Notes under the pieces: generated by a model
What the model was told of the DNA's origin: nothing
The model's input: only the letters and a program-made list of their open reading frames with translations
Database searches by the model: none
Origin: Sneathiella limimaris
GTDB taxonomy: Bacteria > Pseudomonadota > Alphaproteobacteria > Sneathiellales > Sneathiellaceae
DNA: 64,000 bases
Assembly: GCF_012932565.1 (NCBI RefSeq)
Contig: NZ_JABBYJ010000001.1
Coordinates: forward strand, 2,604,001 to 2,668,000
Reading direction: 5' to 3'
Translations under genes and position numbers: made by a program
Shown here: piece after piece, positions 4,902-24,236 of the stretch
Numbering within the stretch: the stretch's first letter is position 1
Layout of the letters: every line of letters begins with the position of its first letter

Positions 4902-5747
4902 TCAAAATTTCCCACTTTGATAATCGTGAAATGCCTGAATTACTTCCTCACGTGTATTCATGACAAAGGGGCCACCCCGGGCAACGGGTTCATTCAATGG
5001 TTTTCCTGTCACCAACAGGATTCTCACTGGCCCGTCTTGACTTTCTACTCGAACTTCATCTCCATCACCCAACACGGCCAGATCACCTTCCACGAACACA
5101 TGGTCTTCATCCGCAATTTTGGCTTGGCCTTCAGTGATATAAATAAAGGCGTTGTGGTCTGATGGTACGTCTTGGATAAATTTCTGACCGGCTGCCAGGC
5201 GAACATCCATATATATCGGGTCCGTGTAGGGGTTTTTCACAGGACCGGTTGTCCCTGCGTTTGTCGTTCCCGCCACAACGTTGATCGACCCGCCATCAGG
5301 TAACTCTTCTATCGGCATTTCTTCCGGAGGAAATTCCTGGTACCCGGGCTCCCCCATTTTCGCTTTAGCAGGCAAATTGATCCAAAGCTGAAACCCTTTC
5401 ATCAGGCCTTCTTCCTGCTCTGGCATTTCCGAATGAACTATTCCGCGCCCTGCAGACATCCATTGAACGCCCCCAGGCACAATCACACCTTCATGACCAG
5501 CATTGTCTTTGTGGCGCATTTGTCCCGCCAGCATGTAGGTGACGGTTTCAAAACCCCGATGCGGATGAGAAGGAAAGCCACCGATATAGTCCTGCGGCTC
5601 ATCTGTTCCGAAAACATCCAGCATCAAGAAAGGATCCAGGATATTAAGTTCTGGTGTTCCAACATATCGGCGCAATTTAACATCTGCACCATCTGACCCT
5701 TCCATTCCCTTGGTAAGGCCAAGGACCGGTCTTGCTTCTTTGCTCAT
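4902..5747 (-). CDS. Pirin-family bicupin protein
   Basis: The 281-residue bicupin has the pirin N-terminal signature with metal-ligand histidines in FPSHPHRGFETVTYM (about 58-72) and HSEMPEQ (about 106-112). Some bacterial pirins (YhhW) have quercetin 2,3-dioxygenase activity and others act as cofactors; the sequence does not decide between these. It precedes the glutathionyl-hydroquinone reductase gene by 10 bp in the same direction and is divergent from a LysR regulator. The three look like a quinone or electrophile response unit. Length is normal for the family. Confidence 0.9.
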   Translation of the reverse strand: MSKEARPVLGLTKGMEGSDGADVKLRRYVGTPELNILDPFLMLDVFGTDEPQDYIGGFPSHPHRGFETVTYMLAGQMRHKDNAGHEGVIVPGGVQWMSAGRGIVHSEMPEQEEGLMKGFQLWINLPAKAKMGEPGYQEFPPEEMPIEELPDGGSINVVAGTTNAGTTGPVKNPYTDPIYMDVRLAAGQKFIQDVPSDHNAFIYITEGQAKIADEDHVFVEGDLAVLGDGDEVRVESQDGPVRILLVTGKPLNEPVARGGPFVMNTREEVIQAFHDYQSGKF

Positions 5748-5843
5748 AGGTATGACCTCTTCAGATATCAGAAACCTGCGTATTTCTATCCTTAGAATGT
5801 ATATTTTCTGAATTGCGAATAAAGATCCAATATTGAAAAAAAC

Positions 5844-5862
5844 TGTTCGATATTTTAGAACA
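5844..5862. promoter_or_regulatory. Candidate LysR operator (TGTTC-N9-GAACA)
   Basis: A perfect inverted repeat TGTTC-N9-GAACA sits 5 bp before the LysR gene start, in the 120-bp divergent region shared with pirin. It has T-N11-A geometry, so autoregulation and control of the pirin operon are likely. Binding is inferred. Confidence 0.5.
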
Positions 5863-5867
5863 ATTAA

Positions 5868-6779
5868 ATGGGACAGCTGGAAGACATGGCTCTATTTGCC
5901 AAAATTGTTGAAAGCGGCAGTATCACAGGAGCCGCCGACCATCTTGGACTTGCAAAATCCGCGGTCAGCAAACGCCTATCGGATCTTGAAGAATCCTTAG
6001 GTGTCCAGCTTCTAAACCGAACGACCCGCAAATCGAGCCTCACAGAAGCAGGACAACGCTTCTATACACAATCTCAAAAAATCCTGGCGGATACGGATGA
6101 GATGCTAAACGAAATCGGGCAAGAGGGTACATCTCTTACCGGTAATTTGCGAATTGCGGCTCCCCTGTCCTTTGGGATTAAGCACCTTTCCCCTGTTGTA
6201 AGCCGATTTGCCGCTAATCATCCGGGCCTAACTGTTGACCTTGATTTTGCAGACAGACAAGTCAACTTGGTAGAAGAAGGATTTGACGTCGCTATTCGGA
6301 TAGCTGAGTTAGAAAGCTCCAGCTTGATTGCAAAACGGTTCACAACTATTCGCCATATACTATGCGCCAGTCCAACATATCTGGAGAAGCATCCAGCCCC
6401 CAAACACCCAAAAGATTTAGATCAGCATCGGATCCTTAGATACAAAAGTCCTTCAGGCCTTGCCCATCAATTAAAAGATGCGAATGGACAGTCATTTGAC
6501 CTAACCGGAAAGACGGCTTTGATTTCCAATAATGGCGATTTTCTCCGCCAGGCCGCAAAGGATGGACTTGGCATATATTTCTGCCCCAGCTTCATCTGCT
6601 ACGAAGAGTTAAAATCCGGTCAGTTGATGCGGCTACTTCCAGAATTCAGCGCGACAGAACTTGGCGCCTATATTCTCTACCCCCGAACACGCTACCTATC
6701 ATCGCGTGTTCGGACATTTATTGATCATGTTACCAACAGTTTCTCGCAGCATCCTTACTGGGATGAGGGACTGTTTTAA
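5868..6779 (+). CDS. LysR-family transcriptional regulator
   Basis: This 303-residue regulator has a standard N-terminal HTH (about 3-62, SGSITGAADHLGLAKSAVSKR) and an effector-binding domain of the CrgA/DsdC-like type with the FDVAIRIAELESSSLIAKR motif. The family often responds to quinones or phenolics. It is divergent from the pirin/glutathionyl-hydroquinone reductase operon with a 120-bp spacer carrying a palindrome next to its own start. That operon is its probable target. Confidence 0.88.
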   Translation: MGQLEDMALFAKIVESGSITGAADHLGLAKSAVSKRLSDLEESLGVQLLNRTTRKSSLTEAGQRFYTQSQKILADTDEMLNEIGQEGTSLTGNLRIAAPLSFGIKHLSPVVSRFAANHPGLTVDLDFADRQVNLVEEGFDVAIRIAELESSSLIAKRFTTIRHILCASPTYLEKHPAPKHPKDLDQHRILRYKSPSGLAHQLKDANGQSFDLTGKTALISNNGDFLRQAAKDGLGIYFCPSFICYEELKSGQLMRLLPEFSATELGAYILYPRTRYLSSRVRTFIDHVTNSFSQHPYWDEGLF

Positions 6780-6791
6780 GGCCTGTTCTGG

Positions 6792-7757
6792 CTAGTAACT
6801 CGCGCCGCCATCAGGCGCGCTGTAGGTTTCGGTAATTACCTTCTTCCAATCCATATCAGTCACAAAATCACCCGGGGTCATATGCGCAATCCCCCGACGT
6901 TTTAAGTCCGCTGAAAAAATGTTGGCGACTAACTCCGGGGTCAAATCATGGCTATGATCATCATAGGAAGCAGCTTCCCGTTCATTTTTAAAACAATAGC
7001 CCTTCCAAAGAACAGATATCCGAACATCGCCATAGGCGAAGTCAGCTGTGACTTTTTCATCTTCGACAACATTCCACCGGTTTTCATCTGTTAAAACCAA
7101 GGTGGCATCGTAACCGATATTCTCATAGGTTTTTTGCTGATCTTCTGGGCCGATACCGCCTACGCGGTGATACATATATTCATTGTCAGCCAGAACGCAC
7201 ATGTTGGAATATGGTGGACTTTCTGTGCGGGAAGGTGCGTTTAAACCTTCTGGCCAATATTCAAACTCACCGCCAACCCCGTCATAAAACCAGGTAATTG
7301 CAGATGCCACCGGAATCGCCCATTCATGAAAAAGTCCTGAATATCCCATGGGTGCCAACATCCAGCTAGGCACCTCTCTGTTCTGTGCTCCCCGAAAAAA
7401 GGGTAAATCCAGGTGAAAAGGTGCCCCAGGTGCCGGAAGGTTCAGATTGGTCATCATGGCCACTGGACGAATGATTTCTGCCTGAAAAGAGTATTTGGCG
7501 GCGTCTATAAAGCGTTGATTATAGAAGAAAGGTTCAGCCCCTTCAAAAACGACTTTTTCACCTAATGCCCAAAAATTACGAAACCAGCCGCCACTGGTCT
7601 CCCCCTTGTTTCGATGCACGGCAGCCAATGTTTTGTAAGGGCTCCCCTTAGCAATAAGTTTCAAGATCCCATCTGGATCATCAAAGGCCTTTTCCAATTT
7701 GACGGGCGGGGCCAGCAGTGATTTTGAACGCACCAACCGTTCTGTTAGAGCCGTCAT
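6792..7757 (-). CDS. Uncharacterised protein, possible Fe(II)/2-oxoglutarate-type oxygenase
   Basis: I do not recognise this 321-residue protein with certainty. It has no signal peptide or membrane segment. Visible elements fit a double-stranded beta-helix iron oxygenase: an HxD pair in APFHLDLPFF (about 113-122), a distal histidine in YMYHRVGG (about 195-202) and an R-x-S in DVRISVLWK (about 244-252) that could hold 2-oxoglutarate. The protein is rich in Trp, Tyr and Phe. It converges with the LysR gene at 5868 and stands alone. The fold assignment is inference and could be wrong. Confidence 0.6.
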   Translation of the reverse strand: MTALTERLVRSKSLLAPPVKLEKAFDDPDGILKLIAKGSPYKTLAAVHRNKGETSGGWFRNFWALGEKVVFEGAEPFFYNQRFIDAAKYSFQAEIIRPVAMMTNLNLPAPGAPFHLDLPFFRGAQNREVPSWMLAPMGYSGLFHEWAIPVASAITWFYDGVGGEFEYWPEGLNAPSRTESPPYSNMCVLADNEYMYHRVGGIGPEDQQKTYENIGYDATLVLTDENRWNVVEDEKVTADFAYGDVRISVLWKGYCFKNEREAASYDDHSHDLTPELVANIFSADLKRRGIAHMTPGDFVTDMDWKKVITETYSAPDGGASY

Positions 7758-14403: not shown

Positions 14404-14934
14404 GTGGCATACACTTACAAAAATTTTGGGATCGTATGTCGCAATTTAAGGGGTAAGAGCTTGAGAACTGTCAGCTTGATATTGGTTCTTATGGCCGTAT
14501 GGCTGTTATTGTCTGGTATTTATACCCCGTTGATCATTGGATTTGGTATTGGCTCCTGCATATTGGTGGCGCTGATAGCTCGACGTATGGATGTCATTGA
14601 CCACGAAGGCCTTCCAGTACAACTCGGATATCAAATCGTTTTGTACTGGGTTTGGTTAATCGTTGAGATCGTGAAAGCAAACATCGATGTTGCCAAATGC
14701 GTTCTGTTCCCCAAAAAACATCTGAGACCCAGCCTATTTGTTTCCCGAATTTCCCAGAAAAGTGACCTTGGTAAAGTGATTTATGCAAATTCTGTCACCC
14801 TGACCCCCGGCACAGTGACTGTTGACCTATATGAAGATAATATTTTGGTTCACGCACTGACCGAAGCATCAGCTGAAGGTGTCAAAAGTGGCGATATGGA
14901 TCAACGTGTGACTCGTGTAATGGGTGAAGCATGA
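14404..14934 (+). CDS. mrpE: Mrp-type Na+/H+ antiporter subunit E
   Basis: This 176-residue membrane protein has the MrpE/MnhE fold: a hydrophobic N-terminus containing WLLLSG, then IVEIVKANIDVAKCVLFP and a cytoplasmic C-terminal domain with ANSVTLTPGTVTVDL. It is the first gene of a nine-gene operon and overlaps mrpF by 4 bp. The start is uncertain: GTG at 14404 opens the frame, but TTG at 14461 has a better AAGGGG upstream and would give a protein of usual length (157 residues). Confidence 0.88.
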   Translation: MAYTYKNFGIVCRNLRGKSLRTVSLILVLMAVWLLLSGIYTPLIIGFGIGSCILVALIARRMDVIDHEGLPVQLGYQIVLYWVWLIVEIVKANIDVAKCVLFPKKHLRPSLFVSRISQKSDLGKVIYANSVTLTPGTVTVDLYEDNILVHALTEASAEGVKSGDMDQRVTRVMGEA

Positions 14935-15224
14935 GTGTCTTTACAGTTTCCGCAATCGCAATCCTGGTAAGCGTTGCCATGGCTCTTGGTCGAGCTTTGC
15001 TTGGCCCAACAGCCTATGATCGAATTCTGGCAGTCAACGCGATTGGCACAAAGACGGTGCTATTAATTGCAGTTGTCGGCTTCATGAACGGCCGACCTGA
15101 TTTTCTGGATCTTGCAATCGTATACGCCTTGATGAACTTCATTGGCACTTTGGCTGTATTGAAATACTTCAAGTTTGGCACCCTCCGCCGGGGCTTCTCT
15201 CGCGCTAAGGGAGGAGACGACTAA
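14931..15224 (+). CDS. mrpF: Mrp-type Na+/H+ antiporter subunit F
   Basis: The 97-residue protein has three membrane helices and the MrpF core GPTAYDRILAVNAIGTK followed by DLAIVYALMNFIGTLAVLKY. It is a small structural subunit of the antiporter membrane arm. The ATG overlaps the mrpE stop (ATGA) and the stop overlaps the mrpG start. Confidence 0.92.
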   Translation: MSVFTVSAIAILVSVAMALGRALLGPTAYDRILAVNAIGTKTVLLIAVVGFMNGRPDFLDLAIVYALMNFIGTLAVLKYFKFGTLRRGFSRAKGGDD

Positions 15225-15607
15225 TGGAGCTATTTCTTGATATCAGCACCTGGATTTTAATGATGCTGGGCTGTTTCTTCGTATTGATTACCGGCTATGG
15301 CCTCTTAAAGCTTCCTGACCTCTATACCCGAATTCATGCAGGCGGGATGGCCGATACCTTGGCTTCTTTCTTAATCTGTGGTGGCCTTGCTTTGCAAAGT
15401 GGGTTTTCTCTGGTGACCGTAAAGCTGCTCTTCATAGTGGCATTTCTTTTTATCACCAGCCCAACCTCAACATATGCATTGGCGCAAGCGACATTTGTTG
15501 CAGGGCTCAAGCCCAAAACAACTGGCTTTGGCGACGATGATGATCATGAAGACAAGGATGGCAAAGAAAGCGATCAAGACGCCCAAGCAGAGGGAGCCAA
15601 ACAATGA
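15224..15607 (+). CDS. mrpG: Mrp-type Na+/H+ antiporter subunit G
   Basis: This 127-residue MrpG/PhaG protein has three helices with the conserved GYGLLKLPDLYTRIHAGGMADTLAS and ITSPTSTYALAQA. The last ~25 residues are highly charged (many Asp, Glu and Lys), an extension that probably lies in the cytoplasm. It overlaps both neighbours, as expected for a tightly coupled operon. Confidence 0.92.
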   Translation: MELFLDISTWILMMLGCFFVLITGYGLLKLPDLYTRIHAGGMADTLASFLICGGLALQSGFSLVTVKLLFIVAFLFITSPTSTYALAQATFVAGLKPKTTGFGDDDDHEDKDGKESDQDAQAEGAKQ

Positions 15608-16647
15608 TGGAAGAATTTACGAATGTCTTTCTCATGATCCTGCTCGTTGCCGGGGCACTGGGCGTCCTTTACGTTCGAAACCTCTTTGTTGCAACAATGC
15701 TTCTTGCAGCAGTCAGTTTCCTGATGGCGTTAATTTTTGTCATTCTCGATGCCGTTGACGTCGCCTTTACCGAGGCTGCGGTTGGTGCCGGGATCAGTAC
15801 GGTGTTGTTTTTGGGAACACTATCGCTGGTTGGAGCAGAAGAAAAAGAAAGCAAGAAGAAAACAGTTCTTCCATTGTTGGTGTCTTTAATCGTTGGCGGT
15901 GCCCTCTTTTATGCAACATTTGATATGCCCAAAGTTGGTCATCCAGACACACCGGTTCAAAGTAGTCGCTTGACCGAGCGGTTTTTACAGCAAAGCCCTA
16001 ACGAGATAGATGTCCCGAATGTGGTAACTGCTGTTTTGGCCAGCTACAGGGGATATGATACTTTTGGTGAGGTGACAGTTATCTTTACTGCCGGAATTGC
16101 GGTACTGCTAATCCTGCGTCAGTTGCGTCGCCGCCCTGAGACTGAACCACTAGAAGATGCTCAACCTGAACTCCCAGAAACGGCGAGTGATCAGCGAGTA
16201 ACGCCCAATATCCATGATCTAGTCCCACATGTGGTCGCCAAGCTTTTAATTCCATTTATCCTGCTTTTTGGACTTTATGTGCAGTTCCATGGTGACTTCG
16301 GCCCCGGCGGCGGCTTCCAGGCAGGCGTCATTTTCGCTGCGGGCATTATTCTCTATTCCCTTGTTTTCGGCATGGAATATACACAAAAACTTCTTCCTCT
16401 ATGGGTCGTTCAGTTACTGCTCGCTTTGGGCGTTCTTCTTTACGGAGGCGTTGGCGTTGTCAGCATGCTACTTGGAGCGAATTTCCTTGATTATAATGTC
16501 TTGGCCAGCAACCCAATCGCCGGCCAGCATCTTGGGATTTTGTTGGTTGAGTTAGGTGTTGGGATCACAGTGACCGCCGCTATGCTTTCCATTTTTTACG
16601 GTTTTGCCAACCGGTCCGAATTTAACAAGCAGACCGGAGAAAACTAA
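15604..16647 (+). CDS. Fused MrpA C-terminal (DUF4040/MbhD-E) and MrpB subunit
   Basis: The 347-residue protein joins two antiporter parts. Residues about 1-85 form a DUF4040/MbhD-like unit (FTEAAVGAGISTVLFLGTLSLV). Residues about 85-175 look like the MbhE-type tail of MrpA. After a charged linker, residues about 200-340 form the MrpB/MnhB domain (HGDFGPGGGFQAGVIFAAGIILY). No NuoL-like MrpA body is present. This matches the gene order of membrane-bound hydrogenase antiporter modules (MbhD, E, F) more than a canonical seven-gene Mrp operon. Overlaps mrpG by 4 bp. Confidence 0.85.
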   Translation: MMEEFTNVFLMILLVAGALGVLYVRNLFVATMLLAAVSFLMALIFVILDAVDVAFTEAAVGAGISTVLFLGTLSLVGAEEKESKKKTVLPLLVSLIVGGALFYATFDMPKVGHPDTPVQSSRLTERFLQQSPNEIDVPNVVTAVLASYRGYDTFGEVTVIFTAGIAVLLILRQLRRRPETEPLEDAQPELPETASDQRVTPNIHDLVPHVVAKLLIPFILLFGLYVQFHGDFGPGGGFQAGVIFAAGIILYSLVFGMEYTQKLLPLWVVQLLLALGVLLYGGVGVVSMLLGANFLDYNVLASNPIAGQHLGILLVELGVGITVTAAMLSIFYGFANRSEFNKQTGEN

Positions 16648-16650
16648 ATC

Positions 16651-17010
16651 ATGTCATTCTTCGATCACTATAATTACTGGATCTTTGTCATCTTGTTTGT
16701 CATCGGTCTTTACACAATTATGAGCCGGACAAACCTGATCAAGAAAATGATCGGCCTCAGCTTGTTCCAGATTGCCGTATTTCTGTTTTACATCACTATG
16801 GGTAAAATCGAAGGAGGTACTGCTCCGATTTTTGTGGATGATCCCAATGCGGTTTATTCCAACCCACTGCCTCACGTCTTGATCCTCACCGCTATTGTTG
16901 TGGGCGTTGCCACAACAGCACTGGGCCTTTCACTGGTTGTTCGGATCAAAGAATCTTTTGGCACTATTGATGAAGAAGAGATTCTCCGCCAGGAGGAAGA
17001 CAGTAAATGA
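16651..17010 (+). CDS. mrpC: Mrp-type Na+/H+ antiporter subunit C (NuoK-like)
   Basis: This 119-residue, three-helix NuoK/MnhC-like protein has the typical core MIGLSLFQIAVFLFYITMG and NPLPHVLILTAIVVGVATTALGL. In complex I relatives, NuoK carries membrane glutamates that link ion channels. It follows the A-B fusion after 3 bp and overlaps the first D subunit by 4 bp. Confidence 0.93.
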   Translation: MSFFDHYNYWIFVILFVIGLYTIMSRTNLIKKMIGLSLFQIAVFLFYITMGKIEGGTAPIFVDDPNAVYSNPLPHVLILTAIVVGVATTALGLSLVVRIKESFGTIDEEEILRQEEDSK

Positions 17011-18506
17011 GTTCCATTATCTCTCAGGCCCCAATTCTTGCCATTATACTGCCGCTCCTGGGGTCTCCCCTTTGTGCGTTATTACGTGGCGGTGTCGTTC
17101 CTTGGGCGTTTACAACTATCTTAAGCGCACTGTCTTTTTGGATCAGCATCGATCTTCTTTTTCTGGTCAATCAATCCGGACCGATTTCATATGAGCTCGG
17201 CGGATGGGCGGCACCTTGGGGTATTGAATATGTCATTGACCCATTGAGTGCTTTTGTCCTGCTCATCATCAGTGGAATTAGCACAGGCGTGCTCATTTAT
17301 GCCCGGGAAAGCATTTGCAAAGAAGTTGCACCAAGCCGACATGGTCTGTTTTTCTCAGCATATCTTTTGTCGTTAGCGGGAATGATGGGCATCACCGCAA
17401 CAGGCGATGCATTTAATATTTTCGTTTTCCTCGAGATCACTTCCCTTTCCTCCTACGTGCTTATTTCCATGGGAGAAAAGAACGATAAACGTGCCCTTAC
17501 CGCGGCATTTCAATACCTGATCTTGGGAACAATTGGTGCGACCTTTATCCTGATCGGTGTTGGTCTGCTGTATCTGATGACGGGAACGCTAAATATCGCG
17601 GATATTGCGAGCCAGTTCGATAGCATTGAAGACACCCGTCCCATTAGGGCTGCTGTTGGCTTCCTGGTCGTCGGAATTGCCATTAAGCTAGCCATGTTTC
17701 CATTCCATAGTTGGCTTCCGAACGCATACTCTTATGCGCCGACGATCATTACTGCATTCTTTGCTGGAACAGCCACCAAAGTTTCTGTCTATCTGCTGAT
17801 CCGGTTTATCTTCACCATGTTCGGTTGGGACTTTGCATTTGGTGACCTGCCCCTGACACAGCTCCTAATTCCGTTTGCTGTTTTGGCGTACCTCAGCATG
17901 TCAGTCGTCGCCATTTTCCAGGATAACCTCAAGCGGCTTCTCGCATTTTCAAGTGTGGCTCAGCTCGGATACATGACGTTAGGCATTGCACTGGCTTCAG
18001 AAACGGGCCTGACCGCTGGTATTCTGCACATCTTCAACCACGCGATTGTCAAGACAGGTCTATTCCTCTCCGTCGGCGCCATGTTCTTTGTTACCGGCAG
18101 TACTTATCTGAAGGATCTTGCCGGCATCGGACAACGAATGCCGTTGACCACCTTTGGATTTGTCCTTGGGGGACTTGCTCTGATCGGCGTACCTTTAACA
18201 CCAGGATTTATAAGCAAATGGTATCTGGTTCAGGCTGTTCTGGAACGAGGCGATATGCTGGGTTATGGCCTTGCTATCACGATGCTCATCTCCTCTTTGT
18301 TTGCCGTGATTTATGTATGGCGCGTTGTGGAGGTAGCTTACTTTAAACCATCCCCTGATAATGCGCCAAAAGGCGAAGCCCCTATGAGCCTGCTAATCCC
18401 CAGCTGGCTCTTTATCGCCGCCATGTTCTATTTTGGTATTGAAACTTCCATGAATGTTGGATTTGCCGAGGCAGCAGCTGCCTTCCTTATGGGAGGAGCG
18501 AACTAA
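17007..18506 (+). CDS. mrpD: Mrp-type antiporter subunit D, first ND5/NuoM-like copy
   Basis: The 499-residue subunit has about 14 membrane helices and belongs to the NuoLMN/MrpD family of proton or sodium channels. Key ion-path residues are visible: Glu143 in FVFLEITSLSSY, Lys227 in AIKLAMFPFHSWLPNAY, Lys258 in TATKVSVY, and His345/Lys349 in IFNHAIVKTGLF. All are intact, so it looks like an active transporting subunit. It is the first of three such genes in the operon. Confidence 0.93.
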   Translation: MSSIISQAPILAIILPLLGSPLCALLRGGVVPWAFTTILSALSFWISIDLLFLVNQSGPISYELGGWAAPWGIEYVIDPLSAFVLLIISGISTGVLIYARESICKEVAPSRHGLFFSAYLLSLAGMMGITATGDAFNIFVFLEITSLSSYVLISMGEKNDKRALTAAFQYLILGTIGATFILIGVGLLYLMTGTLNIADIASQFDSIEDTRPIRAAVGFLVVGIAIKLAMFPFHSWLPNAYSYAPTIITAFFAGTATKVSVYLLIRFIFTMFGWDFAFGDLPLTQLLIPFAVLAYLSMSVVAIFQDNLKRLLAFSSVAQLGYMTLGIALASETGLTAGILHIFNHAIVKTGLFLSVGAMFFVTGSTYLKDLAGIGQRMPLTTFGFVLGGLALIGVPLTPGFISKWYLVQAVLERGDMLGYGLAITMLISSLFAVIYVWRVVEVAYFKPSPDNAPKGEAPMSLLIPSWLFIAAMFYFGIETSMNVGFAEAAAAFLMGGAN

Positions 18507-20011
18507 TGTTTACCCTTGAAACACACCTGATCCTGTCTCTATTCATCCCGTTGATCGGCGGTGTCTTTGTCGCGGCCCTTGGCAGTATGCCAAACTTGCG
18601 TGAGACAGCAACCCTGACAACCGCAGGACTTTTATTCCTGAATGTCATGGTCATTTTGCAGGCTGCACTTGGTGGCATCTATCCAGAAGCTTCATTGATT
18701 TCAACACTTCCGGGTCTGGATATTGCTCTGAAAGTTGAACCTCTTGGGATGATTTTTGCCTGTGTGGCCTCATCCCTGTGGATAATCAATTCCCTTTATT
18801 CCATTGGCTATATGCGTGGGAATAAGGAAAATAAACAAACCCGTTTCTACATTTGCTTCACCATTGCCATTTCCGCCGCTATGGGTATTGCATTTGCGGA
18901 AAATCTGCTGACCCTCTTTATCTTTTATGAGGTACTCAGCTTATCCACTTATCCATTGGTGACCCACAAAGGAAATGATGCTGCCCTTAAAGGGGGCCGG
19001 ATTTATCTCGGTATCCTGCTGGGAACTTCAATCGGGCTTTTCTTGCCAGCCATTATTTGGGTGTGGACAATAACAGGCACCACTTCATTTACTGAAGGCG
19101 GTATTTTGGCCGGAAGTGTCAGTGCCACGGTGACCGGTATTATGCTGTTCCTGTTCATGTATGGTATTGGTAAAGCTGCCTTGATGCCAATCCATCGCTG
19201 GTTACCGTCTGCCATGGTTGCCCCCACACCAGTTAGTGCCCTTTTGCACGCGGTTGCTGTTGTGAAAGCAGGCGTCTTTTCAGTTCTCAAAGTCGTTGTC
19301 TATATTTTCGGAATTGATTTTCTCGCACAAACCGGTGCTTCTGAATGGCTGACATGGGTGGCTTCCTTCACACTGATAGCTGCCTCAGTCGTAGCAATGA
19401 CCAAAGACAACCTGAAAGCCCGACTTGCCTATTCCACGATTAGTCAGTTGGCTTATATCGTTCTTGCCGCTTCACTTGTAACGCCACTAGCGATCGCTGG
19501 CGGCGCGCTTCAAATCGTGATGCATGCCTTTGGTAAGATCACCCTCTTCTTCTGTGCAGGTGCGATTTACACTGCGACGAAGAAAACTGAAATTTCAGAT
19601 ATGCGGGGTTTGGGCCGGCTAATGCCATTTACATTTGGCGCGTTTCTGATCGGCGCTCTCAGCATCATCGGGATTCCTCCGCTTGGTGGAAGCTGGGCAA
19701 AATTTTACATTATGTTTGGTGCCGTAGAGGCAGATCAGCTCTTTGTGCTGATTGTTCTTCTAGTCAGTTCACTTCTAAATATTGGCTATCTGATGCCGAT
19801 TGTTATTAGAGGCTTCTTCTTTGCCCCGCTCGGTAAGTCGGATGAAGTAAAACCTGTCGGGTCTGAAAAGAGCTTCATTGACTGGAGCGCACTAAAAGAA
19901 GCTCCTGTGCTTTGTGTATTGCCACCTGTCCTGACGGCAATCGGCTGTATTATTCTTTTCTTCGCAGTTGATCCCATTTACCAGCTGTTGCTTCCAGCAA
20001 TCGGGAATTAG
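18506..20011 (+). CDS. Mrp-type antiporter subunit D, second ND5/NuoM-like copy
   Basis: This 501-residue homologue of the previous subunit keeps Glu142 (FYEVLSLSTYP), the Lys of GIGKAALMPIHRWLPSA, the Lys of HAVAVVKAGVF and the Lys of MHAFGKITLFF. It overlaps the previous gene by one base. Sequence divergence from the first copy is large, so it is an old paralogue and not a recent tandem duplication. Either it replaces the missing NuoL-like half of MrpA or it gives an additional ion channel. Confidence 0.92.
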   Translation: MFTLETHLILSLFIPLIGGVFVAALGSMPNLRETATLTTAGLLFLNVMVILQAALGGIYPEASLISTLPGLDIALKVEPLGMIFACVASSLWIINSLYSIGYMRGNKENKQTRFYICFTIAISAAMGIAFAENLLTLFIFYEVLSLSTYPLVTHKGNDAALKGGRIYLGILLGTSIGLFLPAIIWVWTITGTTSFTEGGILAGSVSATVTGIMLFLFMYGIGKAALMPIHRWLPSAMVAPTPVSALLHAVAVVKAGVFSVLKVVVYIFGIDFLAQTGASEWLTWVASFTLIAASVVAMTKDNLKARLAYSTISQLAYIVLAASLVTPLAIAGGALQIVMHAFGKITLFFCAGAIYTATKKTEISDMRGLGRLMPFTFGAFLIGALSIIGIPPLGGSWAKFYIMFGAVEADQLFVLIVLLVSSLLNIGYLMPIVIRGFFFAPLGKSDEVKPVGSEKSFIDWSALKEAPVLCVLPPVLTAIGCIILFFAVDPIYQLLLPAIGN

Positions 20012-20021
20012 AGGGTTCGGT

Positions 20022-20291
20022 ATGTCATCAGAAAATTCAAACCAAAGCTGGCTCGAAAAACCAAACATGAAAAATCGCCTTTATTGGGGACTGGTCGTCG
20101 TTGCAATTCTGGTTGCCCTTCCTGATCTCTTATCGCTTTTTCATATCGTCTATGAAATGCACCCCTACACGGAGATCGAAAAGATTCCTGCTTTTTATGG
20201 TCTTTATGGCCTGATTGCATTTTTGACCCTGATTGCAGTTGCGAAAGCTGTTCAGAAATTGGTCGCTGCCAAGGAGGACTATTATGATTGA
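20022..20291 (+). CDS. Small two-helix membrane protein of the antiporter operon
   Basis: I do not recognise this 89-residue protein. It has two hydrophobic segments (about 20-38 and 52-70), a polar N-terminus and a charged C-terminus. The ATG at 20022 lies 10 bp past the stop of the second D gene. Its end overlaps the third D gene by 8 bp, and the GGAGG for that gene lies inside it. Its position between two ND5-like genes argues for a role in assembly or packing of the third subunit. That is inference from context. Confidence 0.75.
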   Translation: MSSENSNQSWLEKPNMKNRLYWGLVVVAILVALPDLLSLFHIVYEMHPYTEIEKIPAFYGLYGLIAFLTLIAVAKAVQKLVAAKEDYYD

Positions 20292-21975
20292 TGGCTTGAA
20301 CCCTGGCCTGATCCTGATCCTTGGTGCCCTGATCGTTCCTTTTACCAGCAGCTTTATTCGAAGTGGCTTGCTATTGGGATTACCTATTCTTGCCTTTGCC
20401 CAACTGATGTCTCTGGGACTTGGAAGCTGGGGCGAGGTTGAGATGATGGGCATGACGCTCACATTAACTAAAATCGATGCTTTTTCGCGGGTGTTTGGGC
20501 TGATCTTTCTACTAGCAGCATTCGCAGGTCTTCTTTATGCACTGCATGTCAGAGATACAATTCAACAGGTTGCTACCCTCATCTATGCGGGTGCCTCAAT
20601 TGCCGCAGTTTTCTCAGGTGATTTAATTAGCCTGTTTTCCTATTGGGAATTGACTGCCATTTCGTCTGTCTTCCTGATTTTCGCAAGCAGAACAGAACGC
20701 TCTTATCGCGCCGGTATCCGCTACCTAATCATTCAAGTGACCAGCGGTGTAATTCTGTTGGGCGGGATCATCCTCTATGTAAATCAGTCAGGTTCAGTTG
20801 CCTTTACTGCCATGCAGTTGGACAATTTAGCTGCCTGGTTGTTCCTGATCGCATTCGGGATTAAGGCTGCCTTCCCGCTTCTGCATAACTGGGTGCAGGA
20901 CGCCTATCCGGAAGCAACGGTTAGCGGAACTGTTATCCTTTCTGCCTTCACAACTAAACTGGCAATATATGCTCTGGCCCGTGCCTTTGCAGGAGAAGAC
21001 CTTCTTCTCTGGATCGGGGCAATCATGGTGATTTTCCCAATCATCCACGCCACGCTTGAAAATGATCTTCGCCGGACCATGGCCTATTCACTAAACAGTC
21101 AACAGGGCTTTATGGTTATCGCCATTGGGATTGGCAGTGAGTTGGCACTTAATGGCGTTGCTGCCCACGCGGTGATCAGTATCCTCTATACCTGCCTGAT
21201 CTTCATGGCGACAGGTGCCGTTCTCTATCGCGCTGGTACTGCAAAAATAACAGAACTCGGTGCTGTATATAAATCCATGCCGGTGACCACATTTTTTGTC
21301 ATTATTGGATCACTCACCATCATTGCTTTTCCACTCACAGGGGCCTTCGCAACTAAAAGCCTGATCCTTTCCGCTGCGCTGGATGAAAAAATGGTAATCC
21401 TGTGGCTGGTGATGTTATTCGGTGCTGTAGCTGTGATCGACAATGTGGGCCTAAAAATTCCAGCACTCGGTTTCTTTGGCAAAGATAATGGAACAGAACT
21501 CAAAGAAGCGCCCAAGCATATGCTGATTGCGATGGCGATCCTCGCGGCCTCAGCAATCGCTATTGGGATTGCGCCGTCCAGCTTCTTTTCGCTTCTGCCG
21601 TATGAAATGGATTATCACGTTTATACGGCCAGCCATGTTGTTACCCAGCTGCAACTCATTGCCTTTACGGCTCTTGGCTTTGCAGCGGCTATCCGCTTTG
21701 GTGTTTATCCAAAGGTAACAGAGGGGATCAATCTGGATTTCGACTGGGTCTATCGCAGATTACTCAAACGTATTTGTCTTGCGGTTGGAAGTTGGATTGG
21801 CCAGGTTTGGTCTGGATTACTTTCCTGGCTGCAATCCGTTATTCGATACATTATTGAAAGAGCGACACAAACACATGGGCTTGGCGGTGCCATGTCACGG
21901 ACAATGGCATCCAGCACTGCTGTCTTTTTAATTCTGTTGATCCTCAGTGTTTTCACAATTGTTTTCTATAACTGA
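20284..21975 (+). CDS. Third ND5/NuoL-like antiporter subunit, divergent
   Basis: The ATG at 20284, 6 bp after AAGGAGG, gives 563 residues with about 14-16 helices. Glu122 (SYWELTAISS), Lys194 (FGIKAAFPLLHNW) and Lys225 (TTKLAIYA) of the ion path are present. The helix that carries the NHA-x-x-K motif in the first two copies reads SILYTCLIFMATGAVL here, without His or Lys. A ~60-residue amphipathic segment (about 480-545) and a last helix extend the C-terminus, like the lateral helix of NuoL/MrpA. It may be a modified pump or a structural subunit. Confidence 0.88.
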   Translation: MIDGLNPGLILILGALIVPFTSSFIRSGLLLGLPILAFAQLMSLGLGSWGEVEMMGMTLTLTKIDAFSRVFGLIFLLAAFAGLLYALHVRDTIQQVATLIYAGASIAAVFSGDLISLFSYWELTAISSVFLIFASRTERSYRAGIRYLIIQVTSGVILLGGIILYVNQSGSVAFTAMQLDNLAAWLFLIAFGIKAAFPLLHNWVQDAYPEATVSGTVILSAFTTKLAIYALARAFAGEDLLLWIGAIMVIFPIIHATLENDLRRTMAYSLNSQQGFMVIAIGIGSELALNGVAAHAVISILYTCLIFMATGAVLYRAGTAKITELGAVYKSMPVTTFFVIIGSLTIIAFPLTGAFATKSLILSAALDEKMVILWLVMLFGAVAVIDNVGLKIPALGFFGKDNGTELKEAPKHMLIAMAILAASAIAIGIAPSSFFSLLPYEMDYHVYTASHVVTQLQLIAFTALGFAAAIRFGVYPKVTEGINLDFDWVYRRLLKRICLAVGSWIGQVWSGLLSWLQSVIRYIIERATQTHGLGGAMSRTMASSTAVFLILLILSVFTIVFYN

Positions 21976-22857: not shown

Positions 22858-23466
22858 TTATTTCTTGAGATCTTTAGACCGCATCCGCTTCTTTGGAACC
22901 CAACGCGTTACTGAACGACCATCTGCGGTGAAGCGAACTTCCTGAGAGGCAGGCGGCGCTGCTTCCAGATTTGAATGATCCACATTGTAAGGCGATCCAT
23001 CCGGAAATGTACTCACCTGAGACATCCCTAGAAGTGCTTTCAACCCTCCAGGATAGGCAGAGACCATATCCTCAATCAGAATTTCTGAATTCCGGCCTTT
23101 CTGGCGGGCGGTCTTAATAGCCACATCATTGTTCAGAATATCACTGAGCATTTCATCGGTCATTCCGGAATAGCTTTCCCATACTCCACCGAGGACTTCC
23201 TCAACAGCGGGTGACGGATCAACCGCACCATCAACAGCTATACCTTGTTCAAGGGCAATAAAAAGATCAGGTTCAATAGGCCCTACGTCAGTCGCAAGAA
23301 ATGTCGCAGGTATCAACTTGGCCTTTTTATTTTCAGCCGCAAAGACAGCCTGGGACAGGTAAAGGAGCTTCATCAACACAGACGGTGAAAGGTCTATCTC
23401 TGTCTGCTCCGCCTGGCTCTGTAGCCAGGAAACCACGTCAAAAGTTGATCGAATTGCCGGACGCAT
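22858..23466 (-). CDS. Panacea/SocA-like (DUF4065-related) domain protein
   Basis: The first ~75 residues match the Panacea antitoxin/SocA fold: a helix with VVSWLQSQ, SPSVLMKLLYLSQAVFAAE, then ATDVGPIEPDLFIALEQG. SocA is a proteolytic adaptor in Caulobacter, and Panacea domains neutralise many unrelated toxins. Residues about 80-150 are helical, and the C-terminal ~55 residues are basic and probably extended (ending SVTRWVPKKRMRSKDLKK). No toxin gene is adjacent on either side, so this may be a housekeeping version of the domain. It converges with the ChaN-like gene. Confidence 0.6.
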   Translation of the reverse strand: MRPAIRSTFDVVSWLQSQAEQTEIDLSPSVLMKLLYLSQAVFAAENKKAKLIPATFLATDVGPIEPDLFIALEQGIAVDGAVDPSPAVEEVLGGVWESYSGMTDEMLSDILNNDVAIKTARQKGRNSEILIEDMVSAYPGGLKALLGMSQVSTFPDGSPYNVDHSNLEAAPPASQEVRFTADGRSVTRWVPKKRMRSKDLKK

Positions 23467-23852: not shown

Positions 23853-24236
23853 ATGACATCCGTTTCAATGACGGTTAACGGGAATAAAGTGACAGCAGAT
23901 GTTGAACCAAACACGCTGCTTGTTCAGTTTCTCCGTGAACACTTACGACTAACAGGTACTCATGTTGGCTGTGATACAAGCCAATGCGGCGCCTGCACCA
24001 TTCATGTGAATGGCGACAGTGTAAAATCCTGCACCATGCTGGCCGTTCAGGCAGATGGCGCGGATGTTACGACAATTGAAGGACTTGCAAATGGCGATGA
24101 TCTTCATCCCATGCAAACAGCCTTTAAAGAAAATCATGGTCTACAGTGCGGTTTTTGTACACCTGGCATGATAATGAGTGGGCCACACCCTGCTATGGAA
24201 GGGGAAGTCAAATATCTTCCCCTTCCTTTTTTATGA
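23853..24236 (+). pseudogene. Truncated molybdenum hydroxylase [2Fe-2S] small subunit (CoxS-like)
   Basis: The first ~109 residues are a normal CoxS/xanthine-dehydrogenase-type iron-sulfur subunit: Cys40, Cys45, Cys48 and Cys60 form the plant-ferredoxin-like cluster. The second cluster begins at [12 protein letters not shown] (Cys99, Cys102). The family then continues for about 40-50 residues with a CRC motif, which is absent here. The frame switches to unrelated residues and ends after 127 residues inside a terminator hairpin. No large or medium subunit gene follows. A strong GGGAGGA site shows it may still be translated. I read it as a deletion remnant. Confidence 0.75.
24197..24232 (+). 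terminator. Strong Rho-independent terminator overlapping the coxS end
   Basis: GGAAGGGGAAG (24197-24207) pairs perfectly with CTTCCCCTTCC (24216-24226) and is followed by six T. It overlaps the last codons of the truncated coxS frame, so it probably ended the original operon. Confidence 0.92.

Follow-up and report, generated by a model that had tools for sequence, protein, structure and literature searches.

Within a 64,000-nucleotide stretch of the genome of the marine bacterium Sneathiella limimaris (contig NZ_JABBYJ010000001.1, positions 2,604,001 to 2,668,000; hereafter the window), nine co-directional open reading frames (ORFs) at positions 14404-21975 of the plus strand encode an Mrp-related system in the order E-F-G-(A-tail+B)-C-D1-D2-x-D3, where the A-tail corresponds to the C-terminal part of MrpA, D1, D2 and D3 are three ND5-like proteins, and x is a small protein. 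Our results indicate that this cluster probably encodes a stand-alone Mrp-like (CPA3-type) secondary cation/proton antiporter, in which three antiporter-like subunits would be placed in a row, D3-D2-D1, on a cation module formed by B, E, F and G. The arrangement is old and widespread, and represents, within a known family of exchangers, a version apparently not yet characterised.

Gene content of the cluster

Six of the eight junctions between neighbouring genes overlap, by 1 to 8 bases. The first gene (14404-14934, with a GTG start assigned mechanically) encodes a MrpE-like subunit of 176 amino acids (aa; PF01899, MNHE, 2.5e-29), and is followed by a 97-aa MrpF-like subunit (14931-15224; PF04066, MrpF_PhaF, 8.9e-20), which was aligned with PDB chains 6z16_F, 7qru_F, 6cfw_B and 6u8y_B, and by a 127-aa MrpG-like subunit (15224-15607; PF03334, PhaG_MnhG, 2.3e-23; TIGR01300, 71.2 bits against a cut-off of 63.1). 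The fourth ORF (15604-16647, 347 aa) joins the MbhD- and MbhE-like C-terminal tail of MrpA to MrpB (PF13244, PF20501 and PF04039, i.e., MbhD, MbhE and MnhB; NF009161, 390.4 bits against 272), a fusion that the first-pass annotation of this DNA had recognised correctly. Next is a MrpC/NuoK-like subunit of 119 aa (16651-17010; PF00420, Oxidored_q2, 2.1e-24; NF005621, 136.6 against 126). Thus, homologues of Mrp B, C, D, E, F and G were all found in the cluster, both by Pfam and by NCBIfam.

The Proton_antipo_M domain was found by Pfam in three proteins, in agreement with NCBIfam and with the earlier count of ND5-like subunits: D1 (17007-18506, 499 aa; PF00361, 2.4e-61), D2 (18506-20011, 501 aa; PF00361, 4.5e-54) and D3 (20284-21975, 563 aa; NF009310, 594.8 bits against 564), the latter with C-terminal lateral and anchor helices. 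Curated NCBIfam cut-offs were passed by G, A-tail+B, C and D3, with model names that say merely (putative) monovalent cation/H+ antiporter subunits, and no such cut-off was reached by D1 or D2 among the 25 best models listed. Between D2 and D3, the ORF x (20022-20291) encodes an 89-aa protein with two membrane helices, as judged by eye, and a C-terminal EDYY motif; it matched no Pfam model, NCBIfam model or PDB chain, and probably sits at the D2/D3 junction.

Conservation and spread of the gene order

To read the gene order, the nine proteins of the cluster were compared by BLAST with the ORFs of fetched loci. Since these loci had been picked for their resemblance to D3, the A-tail+B fusion or D2, the counts describe conservation of order and not natural frequency. 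The count leaves out six canonical Mrp loci, two loci of the host genome itself and plasmid loci; the named loci are the best 80 of at least 585 D2 relatives, and two entries (L040 and L112), whose contigs are equally long (543,201), are probably one locus counted twice. On this basis, the complete co-directional order E-F-G-A-tail/B-C-D1-D2-D3 was present in 110 of 130 loci, namely 34/36 loci of the class, 10/14 other loci from the genome search and 66/80 named contigs. Twelve of the 20 exceptions are cut by contig ends (L099, L114, L118, L130, L137, L144, L145, L148, L150, L163, L178 and L180) and one by the end of the fetched stretch (L081); a further one is a complex I locus (L077), three are distant loci (L069, L107 and L108), and in the remaining three (L160, L170 and L184, each about 21 kb) one or more genes are absent or not visible. 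The A-tail and B are encoded by one ORF in 31 of the 110 complete loci, and by two in the other 79. An ORF of at least 55 aa separates D2 from D3 in 113/123 pairs, more than half of them with an EDYY-like C-terminus. The layout had initially been taken for a peculiarity of this genome, a view that its conservation and spread do not support; likewise, an accident of assembly or gene calling was rejected, because the order recurs in three more genomes of the genus (L038-L040) and in the 110/130 loci.

D3 exceeds the NF009310 cut-off in 63 of the 289 genomes of the class sample. The named loci span Alpha-, Beta- and Gammaproteobacteria, as well as the Planctomycetota isolate Rhodopirellula solitaria (L142), and loci from metagenome-assembled genomes (MAGs) carry the labels Planctomycetota, Gemmatimonadota, Myxococcales, Vicinamibacteraceae and Desulfocapsaceae, which may be wrong; D3 was not seen in the roughly 21 kb of the Vicinamibacteraceae locus (L184). 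Furthermore, plasmids of haloarchaea (Halomontanus and Haloterrigena) and of Peptoclostridium are annotated with the order E-F-G-A'-B-C-D-D-D, the last two D genes being adjacent, i.e., without x.

Two variants were observed among the exceptions. A gammaproteobacterial MAG (L170, 8104-13309) carries C-D1-D2-x-D3 about 2.5 kb away from where NuoN ends, without neighbouring E, F, G, A-tail or B genes, the proton arm here forming a unit of its own. In two genomes of the same phylum but outside the class (L107 and L108), a cousin cluster comprises E, G, A-tail/B, C, D1 and D2, with a different last ND5-like protein.

Classification of the three ND5-like subunits

In sequence searches of the PDB, the best chain for D1 was MbsH (237 bits), then MbhH and MrpD; D2 matched best NdhF and NuoL, and D3 had MbsH' as its best chain, at just 96 bits. 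A FastTree phylogeny of 136 rows grouped D2 with MrpA, NuoL/NdhF, a DabB-like protein and HyfD (support 0.954), placed D3 as one clade (1.0) beside MbsH' (0.895), and joined D1 to NuoN (0.956), with MbhH/MbsH and MrpD next at weak supports (0.108 and 0.726). D3 and MbsH' were also united in an IQ-TREE phylogeny of 97 rows (94). From these, 18 rows were removed, among them Hyf subunits, the DabB-like protein, Peptoclostridium and other distant rows, because they had long branches or an odd make-up or served as secondary references, and the IQ-TREE phylogeny of 81 rows recovered D1 (94), D2 (100) and D3 (100), together with the groupings D2+NuoL+MrpA (94), D3+MbsH' (91) and D1+NuoN+MbhH/MbsH (90), D1 not being sister to MrpD. 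The phylogeny suggested by the first-pass annotation did not place the set inside a well-described Mrp group with a characterised complex: in the FastTree and in both IQ-TREE trees D1, D2 and D3 form their own clades outside those of MrpA and MrpD, to which the solved complexes belong, in a comparison that left cyanobacterial group 3 aside. An approximately unbiased test did not reject D2 and MrpA as one clade (p 0.167). By fold, the first five Foldseek chains for D3 were MrpA, NdhF and NuoL, and MbsH' ranked 46th.

A histidine in helix 8 is conserved in NuoL and MrpA and is not conserved in MrpD, NuoM or NuoN, according to passages of PMC4938563. This residue is present in 131/132 D2 proteins, in at most 2/122 D1 and in 0/118 D3; of three other positions named in those passages, the D2 alignment keeps Val, and not Thr and Met, as judged by eye. 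Taken together, D2 is most likely of the MrpA-body/NuoL kind, though not inside MrpA, and the possibility that it is unrelated to the MrpA body was rejected on the grounds of the helix-8 His and of its grouping in the FastTree and 81-row IQ-TREE trees. Hence, the claim that the cluster has no MrpA body stands insofar as no single MrpA protein is encoded, and fails insofar as it implied that an equivalent was missing. By the same comparisons, D1 is classed as NuoN/MbhH/MrpD-like, and D3 as a third type, nearest to MbsH' in the trees.

Lateral helix of D3

In an AlphaFold2 model of the D3 protein of the cluster (48 rows, pLDDT 89.5, pTM 0.85), one lateral helix spans residues 487-531 (21742-21876), and a final membrane helix, the anchor, follows at residues 543-562 (21910-21969). 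As a ruler, we counted the residues from an Asp-Trp-x-Tyr-Arg-type motif to the last membrane helix, the latter called by hydropathy. The values were 23, 25, 26, 27 and 30 for MrpA of two-subunit complexes (n = 5, motif picked by hand), and 52, 54 and 59 for NuoL (n = 3). The D3 proteins of the nine-gene layout gave a median of 56 (interquartile range 55-57, range 14-67) for the 98 in which both motif and helix were callable, the others being dropped, and the window D3 gave 53. The D3 of the green complex I, which has four ND5-like subunits, gave 76-83 (n = 8); similarly, the tail from the motif to the protein end has a median of 80 (range 58-91) in 112 D3 of the layout, versus 105-106 in the 8 of green complex I.

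The helix of D3 thus spans the length found in NuoL and twice that found in MrpA, which supports a single row D3-D2-D1; the simplest reading is that the three ND5-like subunits stand in one row within a single complex. The earlier suggestion of a different number of ion paths is consistent with this length. Alternatively, D2 and D3 might be alternative or accessory subunits, one operon giving rise to two two-subunit complexes (D1+D2 and D1+D3), in line with the two antiporter-like subunits of the solved Mrp complexes and with the loss of two helix-11 residues in the window D3. We regard this as unlikely, in view of the length of the D3 helix, of the nearly fixed order D1-D2-D3, and of D2, which judged by its length has no lateral helix, so that a D1+D2 complex would be unbraced.

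Ion-path residues

Proton-channel positions were assigned by E. coli NuoL numbering, in which the residues E144, K229 and H254 are also named in passages of PMC4938563. Apart from one gap each, every D1 (n = 122) and D2 (n = 132) has the helix-5 Glu and the helix-7, helix-11 and helix-12 Lys; among 118 D3, the helix-5 Glu is kept in 117, the helix-7 Lys in 85 (Asn in 32, Arg in 1), the helix-11 Lys in 107 and the helix-12 Lys in 113.

For the cation path, residues were chosen following the proposals set out in passages of PMC7419157 and PMC9568556. The likely carboxylates of the A-tail are kept (E57 in 123/135, D152 in 124/132 and E156 in 128/131), E57 being the MBH-type Glu by alignment, and D152 and E156 being taken as D792a and E796a. 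Likewise conserved are D30 of F, equivalent to D29f (116/118), H38 of G (120/123) and H150 of E (112/117); the A-tail exit, G and E assignments were made by motif and spacing.

Genomic context and the question of a redox partner

The host genome (3.66 Mb in three contigs, rated 100% complete) harbors seven matches to PF00361, corresponding to NuoL, NuoM, NuoN, D1, D2, D3 and one NuoL-like gene at 54 kb, and a single match to A-tail+B, that of the cluster itself; the cluster is therefore the only Mrp-like system of the genome. It lies at 2,618-2,626 kb. One NuoD-like gene (PF00346, at 2,564.7 kb) and one NuoH-like gene (PF00146, at 2,559.8 kb) were detected, on the same strand as NuoL-M-N (2,553-2,558 kb), within about 12 kb of them and about 50 kb away from the cluster, and the profile searches with PF00346 and PF00146 revealed no second gene of either type in the genome. 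Consequently, the cluster is not a membrane-bound hydrogenase (MBH), an identity rejected for want of a redox module in the operon or the genome.

A broader alternative is that the cluster constitutes a modular membrane arm whose redox partner acts in trans (a hydrogenase, an aldehyde/CO dehydrogenase or part of complex I), like MBH, MBS and the green complex I. The order of the genes equals that of the MBH membrane module, D2-x-D3 is found inside rhizobial complex I operons, and a molybdenum-hydroxylase iron-sulfur homologue was found near the antiporter in 17 of the 93 complete loci having at least 3.5 kb downstream. Nevertheless, this alternative is quite improbable: the genome's single PF00346 and PF00146 genes are both located beside NuoL-M-N, no redox gene is fixed beside the cluster (the commonest flanking family occurs in 8/49 loci), the nearby molybdenum-hydroxylase gene is shortened in the window, and the cation-transport subunits E, F and G are retained.

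Regarding the neighbouring genes, the molybdenum-hydroxylase iron-sulfur small-subunit gene (23853-24236), of the CoxS/aldehyde-oxidoreductase type, encodes 127 aa, whereas its counterparts elsewhere in the genus are about 155 aa long. On the minus strand, a SocA-antitoxin-like ORF (22858-23466) was weakly recognised (20.7 bits against a cut-off of 190), and an ORF family resembling it, as judged by eye, lies directly downstream of D3 on the opposite strand in 7/49 loci. The lone NuoL-like gene (536 aa, at about 52.7-56.3 kb of the contig; loci L006 and L079, in the latter at 5639-7249) stands apart from both NuoL-M-N and the cluster and scores 366 bits with NF006029, below the cut-off of 380; it may encode a DabB-like subunit of an inorganic-carbon pump.

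Comparison with known systems

The naming of Mrp groups 1 to 3 follows passages of PMC5703873, in which group 3 is loosely defined by irregular gene order. The cluster shares with groups 1 and 2 (Bacillus pseudofirmus, 7qru; A. flavithermus, 6z16; Dietzia, 7d3u) the homologues of E, F, G, B, C, MrpD and the MrpA tail, as well as the conserved proton-channel Glu and Lys residues and exit carboxylates. It differs from them in the absence of a single MrpA, the body-like D2 and the B-fused tail being separate genes, in having three ND5-like subunits instead of two, in a lateral helix that is twice as long and located on D3, and in the Asn that replaces Asp35 of MrpF. Judged from these sequence traits, the cluster would work like an Mrp antiporter rather than belong to the characterised groups, given that it has neither the single MrpA nor the Asp35 of groups 1 and 2.

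Among the layouts described in passages of PMC5703873, the nearest are the cyanobacterial mrpCD1D2EFGAB and the Microbacterium TS-1 mrpFGBCDDAE, both with detached A parts and duplicated D genes. Since group 3 is loosely defined and shares these features, the cluster might be regarded as an ordinary group 3 Mrp, the same as the cyanobacterial one, which has been shown to function as a Na+/H+ antiporter; we give this view little credence, as the cyanobacterial system, compared by its description, has two D genes rather than three and a different gene order.

According to passages of PMC7419157, the subunits of mbhABCDEFGH are equivalent to Mrp E-F-G-A'-B-C-D. The MBH-like order reported by the first-pass annotation was thus confirmed, and the A-tail of the cluster also carries the MBH/MBS-type Glu, while D3 stands beside MbsH' in all three trees. 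Conversely, the MBH and MBS arms (6cfw and 6u8y) differ from the cluster in their hydrogenase/reductase module, which was found in neither the operon nor the genome studied here, and in their number of antiporter-like subunits, one in MBH and two in MBS, as against three; the low rank of MbsH' by fold is a further difference.

In the green complex I of rhizobia, NuoL is replaced by homologues of D2-x-D3 with their order unchanged. The order on rhizobial plasmids is NuoJ-NuoK-D2-x-D3-NuoM-NuoN-A-B-C, and the stretches read contain no NuoL; the pair lies there between NuoK and NuoM in a nuo operon, whereas D2-x-D3 of the window follow Mrp genes and the host NuoL-M-N are elsewhere. In addition, the lateral-helix part is longer by about 20-25 residues in the D3 of green complex I. 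The rhizobial D3 nests inside the D3 clade in the FastTree and 97-row IQ-TREE trees. The D2-x-D3 pair is standard in a widespread Mrp-like operon, where its helix is one step shorter than in green complex I. Among the open-licence PMC papers surveyed, as titles, starts of abstracts and selected passages, none was seen to describe a proteobacterial Mrp operon with three ND5-like genes; earlier work cited in passages of PMC9040806 and PMC7415380 may already mention relatives in Mrp operons.

Proposed mechanism

For the assembly of all three subunits in one complex, and for the direction, stoichiometry and substrate of transport, we infer the following mechanism. The row D3-D2-D1 would be attached via C and the A-tail to the cation module of B, E, F and G. 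D2 would do the job of the MrpA body/NuoL and D1 that of MrpD, D3 being an added distal unit whose lateral helix would run along D2 and D1, tying the row together. Protons, driven by the membrane potential, would enter via the three subunits, and a monovalent cation would be expelled via the path formed by E/F/G/A-tail/B/C. For Mrp, one proton is reckoned per subunit (2 H+ per Na+), and on that logic each cation could be exchanged for up to 3 H+.

Several observations weigh against the three-subunit antiporter proposed here. Regarding the phylogeny, the 97-row IQ-TREE tree placed D2 toward the D1/MrpD side at 84, without resolution and with long branches flagged, and left the Peptoclostridium D3 outside the D3 clade in a flagged long-branch join; the deep supports of the 81-row tree (90-94) are below the value of 95 starred by the tool. 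The placement of D2 depends on the choice of rows, and the tree alone does not settle it. The rhizobial D2 is not nested, as it either falls outside the main D2 clade or lacks a resolved position, which leaves the direction of transfer of the green complex I parts unsettled. The reference sets of the ruler are small (five MrpA with hand-picked motifs and three NuoL), and the D3 of haloarchaea and Peptoclostridium measured 71-85, above 56 (motif picked by hand). No fixed partner gene flanks the cluster, the commonest family being that of the 8/49 loci, and we have seen no biochemistry on a three-ND5 layout.

Other such observations concern the ion paths. The window D3 has Thr and Ser at the helix-11 Lys and His (residues 303 and 299); because of these changes and of the Asn for the helix-7 Lys in 32/118 D3, D3 may conduct poorly. 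The MrpF position 35 is Asn in 114/115 family loci and Ser in one; in the window it is Asn36 (codon 15036-15038, plus strand), and Asn is also found in both haloarchaea and Peptoclostridium. The same position is Asp in 5/5 canonical loci and in the four PDB chains aligned, and four distant loci, outside the 115, have N, A, S and Q. In passages of PMC7419157, D35f is called invariably conserved in Mrp, and D35L is stated to inactivate the A. flavithermus Mrp; in B. subtilis itself, according to the same passages, replacement by E or N had a milder effect. At the places of Ser36, His37 and His40, MrpC has Gln in 120/120, Thr in 70/120 and Phe in 99/120, with Gln40 and Phe44 at the Ser36 and His40 places in the window; at these two places, haloarchaea have Gln and Phe, and Peptoclostridium Asp and Phe. 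The change in MrpC is the weaker sign, since the canonical alphaproteobacterial MrpC is also without both His. Given the altered residues of F and C, the transported cation, or cation transport itself, may differ from Na+.

Within the genus, the D3 of L038 and L039 likewise have Ser and Thr at the helix-11 His and Lys, and those of L040/L112 and L113 keep His and Lys. The third proton channel is possibly decaying in the lineage of the window D3.

Implications

We tentatively put forward, as a possibility short of probable, that these operons represent a distinct and ancient class of Mrp-like exchangers common to bacteria and haloarchaea. The class would be defined by the three-subunit row, a helix of NuoL length on the third subunit, and an altered cation path (Asp35 to Asn in MrpF; Gln40 in MrpC, except for the Asp of Peptoclostridium), would exchange about 3 H+ per cation, and perhaps transport an ion other than Na+; its D2-x-D3 end would be a spare part taken by the rhizobial green complex I to replace NuoL, with the helix lengthened for a fourth subunit.

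If true, this version of the exchanger could teach how the proton-to-ion ratio changes in these machines. A stand-alone exchanger with three subunits, combined with a lateral helix that lengthens by about 25 residues for each subunit added between two and four, would permit proton-count testing without an attached redox enzyme. Furthermore, a class-wide change from Asp to Asn at a residue called invariant in Mrp would offer a direct test of the proposed sodium path.

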